From: Spirochaetota bacterium
Lineage (GTDB): Bacteria; Spirochaetota; JAAYUW01; JAOAHJ01
Length of the DNA stretch: 40,274 nucleotides
Assembly: GCA_026415295.1 (NCBI GenBank)
Contig: JAOAHJ010000029.1
Location: forward strand, 1 to 40,274
Direction of reading: 5' to 3'
The notes beneath the pieces are model-generated. The model was not told the origin of the DNA. It ran no database searches and saw nothing but the letters and a program-made list of their open reading frames with translations. Of the stretch, positions 2,156-9,770 are shown one piece after another. Made by a program: the position numbers and the translations under genes. The stretch's first letter is position 1. Every line of letters starts with the position of its first letter.

Positions 2156-3070
2156 TTACTCTTTATTGAAAATATTTCTTCTATAGTGACAATATGGAAC
2201 TTCATTAAGTTTTTGATAATAGTCTTGATGATACTCTTCTGCTTCAAAAAATTGAGAAGCTTTTCTTATTTCTGTTGCTACTTTATAGTTATTATTTATT
2301 AGTAAATATTTTATTTTTTCTGCAATTTCTCTTTGAAAATCAAATATATAAAATATAGCACTTTTATATTGCTCGCCAATATCAGGTCCTTGGCCATTTT
2401 CTTGTGAAAAATTATGTATTTCAAAAAAATATTTTATTAGATCCTCTTCTTTTATTTTAAAAGTATCATAAATTACCATAACAGTTTCAAGATGTCCTGT
2501 TATGCCTCTACAAACCTCTTCGTAAGTTGGGTTTATTTTATGGCCCCCCATATAACCAACTCTTGTATAAACAACCCCGTTAAGTTTTTTAAAAAGTTCT
2601 TGAACCCCCCAAAAACAACCAGCTGCAAAAAACATTCTATTTAATTTTATCTGATTATTCTCTTTTATACTATTTTGGTAAATAAAATTTAAAGAAACTG
2701 AATTTACACAATGCCTAGTATTTTTAGATGTGAAACCTTCTCCATAAAAAATATGGCCAAGATGAGAACCACAATAGGCACATAAAATCTCAGTTCTTCT
2801 TCCGTCTGCATCAGGTTGTTTTTTAATAGCTCCTGGTATTTCATCATCAAATGCAGGCCATCCACAACCAGATTTAAATTTATCTTTTGAAGTATAAAGG
2901 GGTATTCCACAATTTTTGCATATATAAATTCCCTCATCAAAAAAGTTTTCATAGATTCCACTAAATGGAGCTTCTGTCCACTTTTCAAACAAAACTTTTT
3001 TCTCAAAATCTGTAAGATTTTTGTTTATAATTTTTACATTTTGTTTATTATTTATTTTATTGTTATCCAT
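2156..3070 (-). CDS. msrBA: Bifunctional methionine sulfoxide reductase MsrB-MsrA
   Basis: Repairs both R- and S-methionine sulfoxide. In the 304-residue form the MsrB domain comes first (about 20-130). It has zinc-binding CKNC (C51, C54) and CAYC (C97, C100), the SGCGWPAF substrate block and catalytic C121 in RHCVNSVSL. MsrA follows (about 142-300) with catalytic GCFWG (C152), GYMGG, and QGPDIGEQYKSAIFY, and a C-terminal C294 that may resolve the disulfide. The start at 3070 is chosen because GGGAG lies 5 bases before this ATG. The open frame could extend to a TTG at 3214, adding a hydrophobic segment, but that start has no ribosome site. B-A order is the less common fusion order but is known. 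Confidence 0.93.
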   Translation of the reverse strand: MDNNKINNKQNVKIINKNLTDFEKKVLFEKWTEAPFSGIYENFFDEGIYICKNCGIPLYTSKDKFKSGCGWPAFDDEIPGAIKKQPDADGRRTEILCAYCGSHLGHIFYGEGFTSKNTRHCVNSVSLNFIYQNSIKENNQIKLNRMFFAAGCFWGVQELFKKLNGVVYTRVGYMGGHKINPTYEEVCRGITGHLETVMVIYDTFKIKEEDLIKYFFEIHNFSQENGQGPDIGEQYKSAIFYIFDFQREIAEKIKYLLINNNYKVATEIRKASQFFEAEEYHQDYYQKLNEVPYCHYRRNIFNKE

Positions 3071-3235
3071 ATTAACTCCCATATTTTTGATGTATAAAAT
3101 TATTTTAATTAAAACAAAAAAAAAGATTAAAATTAAAAGCAGTATGTAATATTTTTTAAATTGTAAAATGTACATATTTAAATAAAATATAATTAAAAAA
3201 TAAATAATATTCAACTTGTATTTATTTTTTTCATT

Positions 3236-3331: not shown

Positions 3332-4648
3332 ATGCTTAAAGTTGGAGTTGTTGGAGCAGGTCAATTATGTAGAATGTTTGGAGAAGAGATAAAAAATAAG
3401 AATTTGAATTTGCTTCTTTATGCTATAGATCCAAATGATAACCCACCTGCTAAAGAATTTCTTTCTCAACATATAAAGGCAGATTATAAGGATTTTGATG
3501 AAATTATTAAACTTGGTGAAAAGGTTGATGTTATAACATTTGAAATAGAACTTGCAAATTTTAAAGCTTTAGAACTTCTGGAAAGCCAAAATAAAAAAGT
3601 TTATCCTTCATCTTTTGTCCTTAAAAATATCCAAGATAAATTTATACAATATAAATTCTTAAAAGAAAATAGTATTCCTGTCCCAGAATCAATAGAAATA
3701 AAATCTAAAGAAGAGCATGATTTTGAAAATGAAATAAAAGATATTATAAAATATTTAGGAATTCCACTTGTATTAAAAGCAAGAAAAGATTCTTATGATG
3801 GTAGGGGGAATTTTATTCTAAAAAAAGAAGATGATATTAAAAGATCTTATAAATATTTTGAAAATAAAACAATAATGGCTCAAAAGTATGTAAATTTTAT
3901 TTTTGAAGTTTCTATTATAGGTTGTAGGTGGTATGATGGTTCTATAACTTTGTTCCCATTATCTTTTAATATACATGGGAAAGATTATAATATATTGGAT
4001 AAAACTTTTGTCTTAAATGATAATTTGATGGAGAATTTTTGTTATGAAAATTTTATTTATGACTTTTGTAAAATTCTTTCTAAAGAGGAAAGTAAAGAGA
4101 TAAAATATTTTGATATTAAAAAGGTTAAAGAGAAAGCATATAAAATAGCATATGATGTTATAAAAGCTTTTAATTCTTATGGAGTTTTAACTATTGAAAT
4201 GATGGTTGAAATTAATGATAATCATAAAAATGATAATATAAATATTTATGTAAATGAGATAGCTCCAAGAGTTCATAATAGTGGACATTACTCTATCGAA
4301 GGATGCAATATTTCACAGTTTGAAGCTCATTTAAGAGCAATTACATGGGAAAATAAAAAAGTACCTTTTCTTAAAAAAAATTTTGTATGTATGTTAAATA
4401 TTTATGGTAGTAAAAATGATTCTGGTAAGTTTAATATTATTTATGAAAATAATGGAGTAGAGAAAATAATAGAAGGGACTTTAAAAGTTGATGATAATAT
4501 CTTTGTACATAATTATATGAAAACAGAAGTTAGACCATATAGAAAAATAGGTCATATAACTATTTTAAGTTCTCCTAATGAGGATCTTCTAAATTTTTAT
4601 GAAAGAATTTTAAAAATAAAAGATAAAGTAAAAATAAAAATATTATAA
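3332..4648 (+). CDS. purK: N5-carboxyaminoimidazole ribonucleotide synthase PurK
   Basis: Catalyses the ATP- and bicarbonate-dependent carboxylation of AIR to N5-CAIR in purine synthesis. 438 residues. The N-terminal nucleotide-binding loop is GAGQLCRM (8-15). The ATP-grasp core has LVLKARKDSYDGRGN (146-160), MAQKYVNFIFEVSII (182-196) and the metal-binding/terminal block VNEIAPRVHNSGHYSIEGC (307-325), followed by ISQFEAHLRAI, all typical of PurK. It is longer than the usual 360-390 residues, mainly through an insertion around 230-265. purE follows after 19 bases, so the two are probably co-transcribed and work in sequence. Confidence 0.96.
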   Translation: MLKVGVVGAGQLCRMFGEEIKNKNLNLLLYAIDPNDNPPAKEFLSQHIKADYKDFDEIIKLGEKVDVITFEIELANFKALELLESQNKKVYPSSFVLKNIQDKFIQYKFLKENSIPVPESIEIKSKEEHDFENEIKDIIKYLGIPLVLKARKDSYDGRGNFILKKEDDIKRSYKYFENKTIMAQKYVNFIFEVSIIGCRWYDGSITLFPLSFNIHGKDYNILDKTFVLNDNLMENFCYENFIYDFCKILSKEESKEIKYFDIKKVKEKAYKIAYDVIKAFNSYGVLTIEMMVEINDNHKNDNINIYVNEIAPRVHNSGHYSIEGCNISQFEAHLRAITWENKKVPFLKKNFVCMLNIYGSKNDSGKFNIIYENNGVEKIIEGTLKVDDNIFVHNYMKTEVRPYRKIGHITILSSPNEDLLNFYERILKIKDKVKIKIL

Positions 4649-4667: not shown

Positions 4668-5759
4668 ATGAAAATAGAGATAAGGACAGGTTCAGATTCT
4701 GATATATCTCATATTAAAGAACTTATTAATCTTCTAAAGTTAGTTGGTGTTGATTTTGATTTAAGGGTACTTTCAGCTCATAGAACACCAGAAAGAATGA
4801 TAAATGAAGCAAGAAAACTTGAAAAGAAGGGATTTATCTTATCTGTTGCAGTTGCAGGTGGTTCTGCACATCTTCCTGGGATGACAGCATCTGAGACTTT
4901 ATTGCCAGTTTTAGCCATACCAGTTTTGACAAAAAATTTTAATGGTCTGGATTCTCTTCTTTCAAGTTTACAGATGCCTGAAGGTGTTCCTTTAGGTGTC
5001 TTACCTATCAATGATTCTTATTCTACATTTTTATTTATTCTTAAACTTTTAAATTATTTAAGTAGCTATATTCTTTTCGATGGAAATATTTATGAAAAAT
5101 TAGTTAAAAATCTATTTGTTGAAAAAAGTGATCTTTTTCTAAATATTAGAAAAAATTTAGAAAAATTATCTAAAAAATTTAATTATCTTAAAAAATATAA
5201 TGTTTCAGAAAAGATAATAATATTAATTGATGATAAGATAAAGAATAAATGTGAAAGTTATTATAAAAAAATTATTCAACAAAAGATTGATCTACAGATT
5301 AAGTTAGGAATTGAATTTTTTGTCTATCATTTTGATCCTGATAATATAGAAGATCTCCTCCTTGATATAAAGGAAAATAATGATAAATCATCTATAATTG
5401 TTTTTGAATATTTTTCTTATAATCCTTTAATTTGCAAAATTTCAAGTTCGTTGGCTAATTTAGTTGTCCATTCATTTGTATTAGATAAAGAAGAAAATAT
5501 AGATTTTAATTTGCTTCTAAATATTTTTAATAAAAAAAATAAATTTGATAATGTTACAGAAAATCTATTTCCAAATGTTTTTACAGGAGTTAATAGAATA
5601 GAAAACTGTTTTCTTTTTTTACTCAAAATTATTGCTACTAAAAATAGTAAAATAAAAAACTTTCTTAAAAATTATAAAAAAGTGATGAAAAAAAAGGTAG
5701 TAAAGATAGATAAAGAAGTAAAGTTAAAAACAAAAATTAATAACTTTTTATTTTTATAG
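4668..5759 (+). CDS. purE: N5-CAIR mutase PurE with a second, degenerate PurE-like domain
   Basis: Converts N5-CAIR from PurK to CAIR. 363 residues, about twice the usual 160-170. Residues 1-135 are a class I PurE: GSDSD (8-12), SAHRTPERM (36-44), GGSAHLPGM (64-72, normally AGAAHLPGM), NGLDSLLSSLQMPEGVPLG (92-110). Residues about 180-325 repeat the same order of secondary structure: IIILID, then GIEFFVYHFDPDN, IIVFEYFSYNPL, ANLVVHSFVLDKEENIDFNLLLNIF and FLFLLKIIA. The active-site motifs are lost there. The second half therefore looks like a pseudoenzyme copy, perhaps structural in the octamer; this is my alignment by eye. A lysine-rich tail ends the protein. Shine-Dalgarno GGTGG precedes ATG. 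Confidence 0.93.
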   Translation: MKIEIRTGSDSDISHIKELINLLKLVGVDFDLRVLSAHRTPERMINEARKLEKKGFILSVAVAGGSAHLPGMTASETLLPVLAIPVLTKNFNGLDSLLSSLQMPEGVPLGVLPINDSYSTFLFILKLLNYLSSYILFDGNIYEKLVKNLFVEKSDLFLNIRKNLEKLSKKFNYLKKYNVSEKIIILIDDKIKNKCESYYKKIIQQKIDLQIKLGIEFFVYHFDPDNIEDLLLDIKENNDKSSIIVFEYFSYNPLICKISSSLANLVVHSFVLDKEENIDFNLLLNIFNKKNKFDNVTENLFPNVFTGVNRIENCFLFLLKIIATKNSKIKNFLKNYKKVMKKKVVKIDKEVKLKTKINNFLFL

Positions 5760-5881: not shown

Positions 5882-6487
5882 ATGAGAAAAATTTTAAAAT
5901 TTTTAATATTAAGTCTTTCTATAATATTAATTGTAGCTTTTATATTCTTTTTTCATGAGTTTTTTATTTATATTGGTCAGAAATTATTAATAAAAGAAAT
6001 AGAACTAAAATCAGAAATTAATCCGTTGGTTATAAAAATTGAGAAGATAGAGAATGGAAATGTATTCTTTATAGCAAAGTTTCTCGATATTGATGGTAAT
6101 GTTGTATATTTTCTTCAGGATTCTATTGTAGGGCAATATTTATTTGTAGATTTTCTTGTTTATAAAGAAGGTTCTAACTATTTTTTCTTTCCATATCTTG
6201 TTTTTTCAGATGTTGTTCCTTCTGATTATGGAAAAGACTTAACTAAAGCATATTTAAAAGATGGATTTCCTGAGATTTATAGAAAAAAAAATATGGATGA
6301 ATTTTACATCAACAAATTGATCGAAATTTATTCAAAAGCTTTTAATAGGGCAAACTTTAAAGAAGGTTCAAAAAGTTTTGGAAATGCTCTTCATATTATT
6401 AAAAAGGTTGAGAGTATTGATTTTTCATCATATATTTACTATATATGTAATATAAAAAAAGGTGGCATAGAAGTTATAACCAAGTAA
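5882..6487 (+). CDS. Membrane-anchored protein, unknown, paralogue of the next gene
   Basis: 201 residues. One N-terminal membrane helix (about 6-28) is followed by an extracytoplasmic domain with alternating beta pattern: FIAKFLDIDGNVVYFLQDSIVG, then YLFVDFLVYKEG, then a C-terminal helix-rich part ending FKEGSKSFGNALHII. The following gene repeats this layout with recognisable sequence similarity (FVDFxV...DGxDLKxxY...EGxKxSFGxxLxxI), so the two arose by duplication. They are 15 bases apart and probably form one operon. No known domain is recognised. It could be a lipid- or envelope-associated protein, but the sequence gives no specific role. Confidence 0.7.
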   Translation: MRKILKFLILSLSIILIVAFIFFFHEFFIYIGQKLLIKEIELKSEINPLVIKIEKIENGNVFFIAKFLDIDGNVVYFLQDSIVGQYLFVDFLVYKEGSNYFFFPYLVFSDVVPSDYGKDLTKAYLKDGFPEIYRKKNMDEFYINKLIEIYSKAFNRANFKEGSKSFGNALHIIKKVESIDFSSYIYYICNIKKGGIEVITK

Positions 6488-6502: not shown

Positions 6503-7363
6503 ATGAATTTTTTAAATATATTTAAATTTCTTGATTTTAAATATTTTGATTTAAGATTATCTGATTATATAAAATTCAGTGGTTTTAATATTAATTTTAA
6601 ATTTATAATTTTTATAATAATTTTAACTTTTTTTTTGTTTTTATTTGTTTATATCTTTTTTGAATTAAGAATATTTAAAGGTAAAAAAACTTCTATTGAT
6701 GTAGCTTATATATTTATAAAAAAAACAATAAATTATATTAAAAATTTTTTTGTTTTTATTTTATTTGTTTTTTTTATTACTATTCTTGCATTTTTATTTA
6801 TTAGAATAAATCAATTTATTGAAAGTATTAATTTTAATAATAATCTTATAAAAGCTATAAAAAATCTTTCATATTCAAGAGTTATATGTGAAATAGAAAT
6901 ATTAAAAATAGATAAATTTAATGAAAATATTGATTTAAAAATAAACTACCTTGATTTTAATAAAGATTTAATAGAATCAAAAGAATTTAATGTTTATGGT
7001 AGAGAAGTATTTGTTGATTTTATTGTAGTTGACTTTCAGTTTAAATTAATAGAAAGTGGTGAAAAGAGCAATCTTGCTGTATTAAATAAACTTTATACAA
7101 ATAAAATTTCTCCAAAAGATGGAATAGATTTAAAAAATTTTTATTTTTATTCAAAGAAACCTGAAGGTATAGAAAATAAAGATTTTGTAAGAATAATAGA
7201 ATATATCGATAAGATTATAAATGATGAATATTTTGCAAAAAAAGAAGGAGTTAAAGCTTCTTTTGGCTCAAGTTTATCATTTATTCCTAAAAGTGAAGGA
7301 GACATTTTTAGAATATATGTAAATAATACGGGAGGAATAGTTTTACAAAAAATAAACTTTTAA
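6503..7363 (+). CDS. Two-helix membrane protein, unknown, paralogue of the preceding gene
   Basis: 286 residues. There are two hydrophobic helices (about 33-53 and 77-100) separated by a short charged stretch, then an extracytoplasmic domain (about 120-286). That domain matches the preceding protein in order and sequence: DLKINYLDFNKDLIESKEF, REVFVDFIVVDFQF, SPKDGIDLKNFY, KKEGVKASFGSSLSFI, GDIFRIYVNNTGGIVL. The N-terminal extension with an extra helix distinguishes it. The start has only a weak AAG before ATG and may rely on coupling to the gene before it. Function unknown. Downstream lies a terminator at 7496-7537. Confidence 0.7.
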   Translation: MNFLNIFKFLDFKYFDLRLSDYIKFSGFNINFKFIIFIIILTFFLFLFVYIFFELRIFKGKKTSIDVAYIFIKKTINYIKNFFVFILFVFFITILAFLFIRINQFIESINFNNNLIKAIKNLSYSRVICEIEILKIDKFNENIDLKINYLDFNKDLIESKEFNVYGREVFVDFIVVDFQFKLIESGEKSNLAVLNKLYTNKISPKDGIDLKNFYFYSKKPEGIENKDFVRIIEYIDKIINDEYFAKKEGVKASFGSSLSFIPKSEGDIFRIYVNNTGGIVLQKINF

Positions 7364-7706: not shown

Positions 7707-9770
7707 ATGATAGAGATACCAGATATGAATGAACAAGTTAAAGCAAGATTACAAAAACTTGAAGAATTAATAAAGATTGAGAAGATTGTATATAAAGAGA
7801 GATGGGATAAAGAAGATATTATTGCAAATATATTAAAAAAAGAAGAAAATGAAGAAGTTTCATGTGCAGGAAGAATTATAGCAATAAGAGAGTTTGGAAA
7901 ACTTATATTTGGTCATATAAATGATTATTCAGGAAAAATTCAGTTTGCTTTTGATTTACAGAATATTGGAGAGGATAGATTTGAATTTTTTAAAAAATAT
8001 GTTGATATAGCTGATTTTATTGGTATTAAAGGAAAAATATTTTACACAAAAACTAAAGAAAAAACTATTCTTGTTAAAGATTTTGTTTTACTTTCTAAAA
8101 CTTTAAGACCTCTTCCTGAAAAGTGGCATGGTATAACTGATACTGAGATAAAATATAGACAGAGATATCTTGATCTAATAATGAACCAGGATACATGTGA
8201 TAGGTTTGTTAAAAGAGCTAAAATGATAAAATTATTTAGAGAATATTTGGATAACCATGGTTTTATAGAGGTTGAAACACCTATATTACAAACAAAAAAA
8301 TCAGGAGCTCTCGCAAAACCCTTTATTACTCATCACAATGCACTTGATATAGATGTTTATTTAAGAATAGCACCTGAAACTTATTTAAAAAGGCTTGTTG
8401 CAGGTGGGCTTGATAGAGTTTATGATTTAGGAAAATGTTTTAGAAATGAAGGTATAGATCCCTCACATTTACAGGAATTTACAATGTTAGAATTTTATGC
8501 TGCTTATTGGAATTATAAGGATCTTATGAAATTTACTCAAGACTTGATAAAATATGTTGTTGAGAATCTACTTGGGACTTTACAATTTGAGTATAAAGGA
8601 GTTAAAATTGACCTTTCAGGTGATTGGCCAGCTTATTCTTTTAGGGAATTAATTTTAAACAATTGTGGAATAGATATTAATAATTTTAAAAGTGCTGATG
8701 AATTAAGGAAAGAGATAAAGAACAAAGGTATACAGCTTGAAGATGTTGAAAATTTAGGGCTTGGGAATCTTATTGATGCACTTTATAAAAAAGTAGCAAG
8801 ACCAAAAATGATACAACCTCAATTTTTAATACACCACCCAATAGATTTATCTCCTCTTGCAAGAAGAAATGATGAAAATCCAGATGTTGTTGATAGGTTC
8901 CAACTAGTTATAAATGGTTGGGAAGTTATAAATGCATATTCAGAGCTTGTTGACCCTATCGACCAAAGGGAAAGATTCATGAAACAAGCAGAAGCATATA
9001 GTAAAGGTGATGAAGAAGCTTTAGAAATGGATGAAGATTTTCTTTTATGTATGGAACATGGTATGCCTCCTATTGCTGGTTGGGGAATGGGGATTGATAG
9101 GTTCTTAGCACTTTTAACATCACAGGATAACTTAAAAGATGTTATTCTTTTTCCGTTGATGAGACCACTTAAAGAGGAAAAAGTTAAAGTTGAATCTTAT
9201 GATCTTACAAAACTTAATTTAAGCAAAGAAGATGCTTTAAAAATAATGAAAGAGTATTTAAAAAAAGAGCATATGATAAAACATTCTTTAGCTTCTGCTA
9301 AAGTAATGGAGGGACTAGCAGAGTATTTTGGAGAAGATAAAGATAAGTGGTATATTTTAGGTTTACTTCATGATATAGATTATGAACTAACTGAAAATGA
9401 ACCTGAAAAACATGGAATACTTACAAAAGAACTTCTTTTAAAATATAATATTCCTGAAGATATTATTAGAATAATACAATCTCATAATGAGATGACTGGT
9501 GTAAGAAGAGAATTAAAAATTGATTATGCCTTAGCAGCAGCTGAAACTATAACTGGACTTATTGTAGCAACAGCTTTGGTTTATCCAGATAAAAAGTTAG
9601 AATCTGTTTCTGTTGATTCGGTTCTAAAAAGAATGAAGAAAAAAGACTTTGCTAGAAATGTTTCAAGGGAAACAATTATGGAAATTGAAAAAGCTGGACT
9701 AAATCTTGAAAAGTTTATAGAAATAGCTTTAAATTCTATGAAGAAAATTTCACTTGAGCTTGGACTTTAA
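7707..9770 (+). CDS. lysS: Lysyl-tRNA synthetase (class II) fused to a C-terminal HD domain
   Basis: Charges tRNA-Lys with lysine in the cytoplasm. 687 residues; bacterial LysRS is usually about 490-510. Residues 1-487 are a complete LysRS: OB-fold anticodon domain (about 50-130), KYRQRYLDLI (149-158), motif 2 FRNEGIDPSH (245-254), the FLIHHPIDLSPLAR block (373-386) and motif 3 GWGMGIDRFLALL (458-470). From about 505 a HD-type phosphohydrolase domain follows: H526, LLHDIDYE (H555, D556), H593 and D606, then KRMKKKDFARNVSRETI. All HD ligands look intact. Shine-Dalgarno AGGAG. Standalone proteins of this HD family are common; the fusion is the odd feature. pgeF follows after 24 bases. Confidence 0.95.
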   Translation: MIEIPDMNEQVKARLQKLEELIKIEKIVYKERWDKEDIIANILKKEENEEVSCAGRIIAIREFGKLIFGHINDYSGKIQFAFDLQNIGEDRFEFFKKYVDIADFIGIKGKIFYTKTKEKTILVKDFVLLSKTLRPLPEKWHGITDTEIKYRQRYLDLIMNQDTCDRFVKRAKMIKLFREYLDNHGFIEVETPILQTKKSGALAKPFITHHNALDIDVYLRIAPETYLKRLVAGGLDRVYDLGKCFRNEGIDPSHLQEFTMLEFYAAYWNYKDLMKFTQDLIKYVVENLLGTLQFEYKGVKIDLSGDWPAYSFRELILNNCGIDINNFKSADELRKEIKNKGIQLEDVENLGLGNLIDALYKKVARPKMIQPQFLIHHPIDLSPLARRNDENPDVVDRFQLVINGWEVINAYSELVDPIDQRERFMKQAEAYSKGDEEALEMDEDFLLCMEHGMPPIAGWGMGIDRFLALLTSQDNLKDVILFPLMRPLKEEKVKVESYDLTKLNLSKEDALKIMKEYLKKEHMIKHSLASAKVMEGLAEYFGEDKDKWYILGLLHDIDYELTENEPEKHGILTKELLLKYNIPEDIIRIIQSHNEMTGVRRELKIDYALAAAETITGLIVATALVYPDKKLESVSVDSVLKRMKKKDFARNVSRETIMEIEKAGLNLEKFIEIALNSMKKISLELGL

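Follow-up and report, generated by a model that had tools for sequence, protein, structure and literature searches.

Tandem PurE proteins in Methanobacteria

Four Methanobacteria have been described in which purK is absent and two PurE-like domains are fused (Brown et al. 2011, PMC3261824). Two of the fused genes complemented E. coli strains with purE and purK deletions, and the passage of that paper that cites Hamilton and Reeve (1985) states that a deletion in the second domain, purE', abolishes complementation (PMC3261824). A structural role for PurE' is also raised by these authors (Brown et al. 2011, PMC3261824). We found the tandem PurE-PurE' arrangement in 59 out of 60 Methanobacteria genomes; the catalytic histidine of their PurE' domains is replaced, mostly by Ile or Thr, and the domains still score 106-165 bits as PurE. 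Among PurE proteins in general, the histidine of the SAHR motif is conserved in all and required (PMC9376930), and the N5-CAIR mutase of E. coli forms a homo-octamer in which active sites lie next to one another (PMC11451730).

A two-domain PurE frame downstream from purK

The window, by which we mean the whole stretch of DNA analysed here (40,274 nucleotides from a Spirochaetota bacterium; contig JAOAHJ010000029.1), encodes a PurE-related protein of 363 amino acids whose two halves we call copy 1 and copy 2 (Table 1). The purK gene lies directly upstream, at a distance of 19 bases. The 363-aa frame is the sole match to the AIRC family in a 2.1-Mb, 96% complete genome that also encodes PurC. 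Three genomes of the same order (G001-G003) all have an ordinary single-domain PurE of class I type, in frames of 176-191 aa, and PurK is detectable in only one of the three (G002). Elsewhere in the phylum, one genome (G020) carries a PurE almost identical to that of Treponema denticola (3rg8).

Table 1. Coordinates of the PurE-PurE' gene, its parts, and purK in the window
Feature	Position	Strand	Evidence
Whole gene, PurE-PurE' two-domain protein, 363 aa	4668..5759	+	single ORF
PurK (N5-CAIR synthase), metabolic partner of PurE	3332..4648	+	NCBIfam PurK 1.7e-85; ATP-grasp and PurK_C matched
Copy 1 core, residues 1-112, class I PurE (beta1-beta5)	4668..5003	+	106 bits, core sub-profile
GSDSD motif, residues 8-12	4689..4703	+	sequence; near-invariant columns
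SAHRTP motif, residues 36-41, with catalytic His38	4773..4790	+	invariant in 98 PurE sequences
GGSAHLPGM loop, residues 64-72	4857..4883	+	sequence; PurE alignment
Copy 1 tail, residues 113-160, two predicted helices at the place of PurE alpha5-alpha6	5004..5147	+	
Copy 2 core, residues 172-305, degenerate and PurE-like, without catalytic motifs	5181..5582	+	
Copy 2 tail, residues 306-352, conserved PurE alpha5-alpha6 with Asn313	5583..5723	+	

The second part of the frame, 210 codons long, contains no in-frame stops, while the other five frames contain 8-42. At its own composition the probability that it is open by chance is ~3e-11, which rules out both a fortuitous open frame and read-through into DNA between genes. 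In the copy 2 core, GC content drops from the first to the third codon position, as in the other genes of the window. The open frame and the codon-position GC together indicate that the second part is a maintained part of the protein and not debris. The PurE-PurE' ORF is genuine, and its open frame is under selection.

The neighbouring genes have features of their own. The PurK protein is divergent and 438 aa long, with ~40 residues (224-263) separating its two matched stretches. Downstream from the PurE-PurE' gene, two neighbouring plus-strand ORFs (5882-6487 and 6503-7363) have hydrophobic N-termini and no Pfam match; their end stretches are similar (SFGNALHIIKKVE and SFGSSLSFIPKSE), and they may be paralogues. 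They are followed on the same strand (7707-9770) by a lysyl-tRNA synthetase (class II, OB fold and core) with a C-terminal HD domain at residues 524-598. On the minus strand, positions 2156-3214 hold an apparent MsrB-MsrA methionine sulfoxide reductase fusion, recognized by motifs only, with a TTG start and a hydrophobic N-terminal extension.

A class I catalytic core with a worn tail

The original prediction placed the GSDSD, SAHRTP, and GGSAHLPGM motifs in the first half of the protein and none of them in the second. Both statements hold: The three motifs lie at the residues given in Table 1, and GSxSD, SAHR, and the AGGxAHLPG loop are all absent from copy 2 by sequence and in the PurE alignment. 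Copy 1 matches Pfam AIRC over residues 3-125 (E = 3.3e-42; 143.9 bits against a cut-off of 30) and retains 29 out of 44 near-invariant PurE residues, compared with nine out of 44 in copy 2. Its motifs are those of class I (GSxSD, SAHRTP, AGGxAHLPG), and a PurK partner is present in the genome; class II PurE is ruled out since its motifs (SAHKT and AGRSNALSG) differ. Copy 1 falls below the cut-off of the NCBIfam purE equivalog TIGR01162 (137.7 vs. 149.6 bits). Copy 1 is fast-evolving, with a long end branch (length 2.83) in the tree, and its tail is degenerate.

We scored core and tail separately, using sub-profiles built from 98 PurE sequences. The core of copy 1 reaches 106 bits (maximum in shuffles, 7.1), and AlphaFold2 (AF2) models residues 1-90 with pLDDT values mostly of 84-96. 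The tail of copy 1 scores 0.7 bits against the PurE tail sub-profile, and 30 shuffles do equally well; AF2 predicts helices at residues 117-134 and 139-149 with low confidence.

The conserved tail of copy 2 and reciprocal decay

That the second half is PurE-like, as had been proposed, stands for its tail; the copy 2 core gives no significant score. Against the PurE tail sub-profile, residues 300-363 reach 32 bits (maximum in 2000 shuffles, 7.7), and residues 306-352 score 21-32 bits by PurE profile, varying with the stretch and the profile used, where shuffles reach at most ~8. An hhalign comparison of the tail with PurE gives 89% probability (2e-6) over 51 columns, and when residues 160-363 are searched against the PDB, the first match is Methanocaldococcus jannaschii PurE (2ywx, E = 3e-4), on the tail stretch. 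At the level of sequence, these matches demonstrate a PurE origin for the last ~50 residues; about the last quarter of the claimed repeat is all that sequence alone proves.

The asparagine at the start of alpha5 occurs without exception in the 98 PurE sequences and in the 20 Methanobacteria PurE' sequences examined. In copy 1 this residue is Ser119, and in copy 2 it is Asn313. Between them, the two halves retain nearly one complete set of the conserved features of PurE, a pattern that looks like a partition of conserved parts between the copies and not like one-sided decay. Such reciprocal decay does not appear in the original prediction, and it would be a clean case of subfunctionalisation within a single chain. 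In a mixed particle, the helices of copy 2 may form the packing surface; alternatively, the cores may have exchanged tails. The sequence is compatible with either. A search of the open literature for work on the C-terminal helix of PurE within the octamer found nothing.

A full exchange of tails is an unlikely reading of these data. It would combine the copy 1 core (residues 1-112) and the copy 2 helices (306-352) into one canonical PurE subunit, leaving residues 113-305 as a degenerate, circularly permuted pseudo-PurE, with decay tracking these hybrids and not the sequence halves. The core and tail scores (106 and 0.7 bits in copy 1 vs. 3-5 and 32 bits in copy 2) and the invariant asparagine, lost from the first tail and kept in the second, fit such an arrangement, as does the phmmer alignment with 2ywx, which jumps from query residue 113 to 306 and leaves the PurE chain ungapped. 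However, the Foldseek alignment of the full-length model with PurE runs through 149 columns almost without gaps. This suggests, with low confidence, that the copy 1 helices are placed canonically, and the exchange would depend on the geometry of the linker. If it were true, the functions of one fold would be divided between the halves of a single chain.

Is the core of copy 2 derived from PurE?

Residues 172-305 score 3-5 bits by PurE profile in HMMER, which is not significant, and hhalign gives residues 172-306 alone a 1% probability of matching the PurE family. A direct match between the two halves, which had been suggested as a check, failed to appear (hhalign probability, 0.3%). A global profile alignment of the copy 2 core reaches z = 3.0 relative to shuffles; we do not rely on it, since five out of 121 unrelated natural windows score higher. 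Neither genome nor viral collections yielded relatives of copy 2 or, with the whole protein as query, close relatives of the 363-aa protein, and a viral structure search returned nothing useful.

Significant PurE similarity is thus confined to residues 1-112 and 306-352, which jointly make one complete PurE, and Pfam and NCBIfam give no further PurE segment. These results could be taken to indicate a single PurE interrupted between beta5 and alpha5 by an unrelated domain of ~190 residues, without any duplication. We consider this improbable, because several lines of evidence point to a repeat. The hydropathy profile of residues 1-112 matches the second half best at an offset of 186 (r = 0.44), with 185 and 187 next, and only one out of 7789 windows from other proteins in the window matches as well. 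Self-alignment of the two tails gives P = 0.014. The inserted region would have to open with two helices at the place where PurE has its own two and continue with a PurE-like strand-helix-strand-helix order, and it matches no other family.

The hydropathy repeat lends weak support to the proposal that residues 172-305 repeat the order of PurE elements, and its offset agrees with that of the block originally aligned (residues 263-287 with 79-101, offset ~185). Structural models point in the same direction. AF2 applied to the full protein predicts a strand at 182-188, a helix at 196-213, a strand at 216-222, and a helix at 224-237, the opening of the PurE fold, with pLDDT values of 41-64 over most of copy 2 and an alignment whose relatives covered the copy 1 core only. 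Given a PurE alignment, AF2 models residues 172-363 in the PurE element order (pLDDT 74, pTM 0.65), and the first 20 PDB matches of this model are all PurE or PurE-containing PAICS, with TM-scores of 0.65-0.71 as normalized by the single-domain targets. There is some circularity in this last model, because the alignment given to AF2 contained PurE rows. From the hydropathy repeat and the models we infer a PurE fold for residues 172-305.

The best reading is therefore that the protein arose by internal duplication, or by the joining of two PurEs, and that copy 2 lost the catalytic motifs. The duplication and the motif loss in the second half agree with the original prediction of duplication followed by decay; the decay is not one-sided, since the tail signature of copy 1 has also been lost.

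Proposed function and assembly

Our preferred account, which we think probably correct, is that the tandem PurE-PurE' protein combines a catalytic mutase, copy 1, with a PurE-derived pseudo-subunit, copy 2, that is kept for assembly. PurK, encoded next door, would make N5-CAIR, and copy 1, in which alone the catalytic motifs are complete, would turn it into CAIR; this N5-CAIR mutase activity is suggested by motifs and context. Copy 2 is presumably inactive: Since the SAHR histidine is conserved and required in PurE and is absent here together with its motif, copy 2 should not catalyse. It would instead replace every second subunit in a particle of PurE type, where its conserved helices at the C-terminus would provide the packing that copy 1 gave up. 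Given the homo-octamer of E. coli, two-domain chains would most simply assemble as four, giving a particle that resembles the octamer and has four active sites. Such a tetramer in place of a homo-octamer, as first envisaged, is plausible.

It is highly improbable that copy 2 has lost any role in the particle and acts instead in regulation or docking, with PurK or a nucleotide as its partner: The adjoining purK, its divergence, and the extra residues between its matched stretches would suit such a role, as would the freedom of the former ligand loops of copy 2 to change, but copy 2 matches no known ligand domain, and its conserved part consists of the helices and not of those loops.

Origin and comparison with known PurE systems

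In the best tree, copy 1 groups with its own phylum (95/85), and for this reason we favour an independent origin of the tandem. Gain from Methanobacteria is disfavoured by this tree; forcing copy 1 to join copy 1 of the Methanobacteria gives a tree that is not rejected (p-AU, 0.124). Among the groups compared, Methanobacteria PurE' is on average the least similar to the copy 2 tail. We saw no further tandem PurE among the matches listed for 393 genomes of the phylum, in a search that detects a second core this decayed only by frame length and that left out a few frames of 260-313 aa. The long frames inspected fall into two kinds: PurD-PurE fusions, and a lone PurE preceded by an unrelated frame.

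Copy 1 has the motifs and fold of class I PurE from E. coli (1qcz) and Thermotoga maritima (1o4v), whose chains have a single domain of ~160-180 aa, in contrast to the two-domain chain of 363 aa found here. In PAICS (2h31) and in PurD-PurE, as here, PurE lies within a longer chain, but the partner is a different enzyme and not a copy of PurE. The same is true of yeast ADE2, a PurK-PurE fusion. PurD-PurE fusions of ~600 aa are present in the same phylum (L025 and L026, from genomes G012 and G024), and similar fusions in other bacteria (L081, L128, and L140).

The tandem layout is already published for Methanobacteria; the present case is bacterial, accompanied by PurK, and much more diverged. 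In both, a single chain of 330-370 aa contains two domains of PurE type: a copy 1 that is presumably the catalytic one and a copy 2 that lacks the SAHR histidine. They differ in that purK is absent from the Methanobacteria (PMC3261824) and adjacent here, and in that the copy 1 tail is complete in the former and degenerate in the latter. In Methanobacteria, copy 2 scores 106-165 bits as PurE, whereas here the score of its core is 3-5 bits and conservation lies in its tail. If our reading is correct, this protein is probably an independent and more extreme counterpart of the Methanobacteria fusion in a PurK-bearing bacterium, and comparison of the two cases tests whether PurE' serves assembly or the replacement of PurK. 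That PurE' has been retained beside PurK speaks for a role in assembly. The PurE-PurE' protein of the window is ordinary in function and unusual in anatomy.
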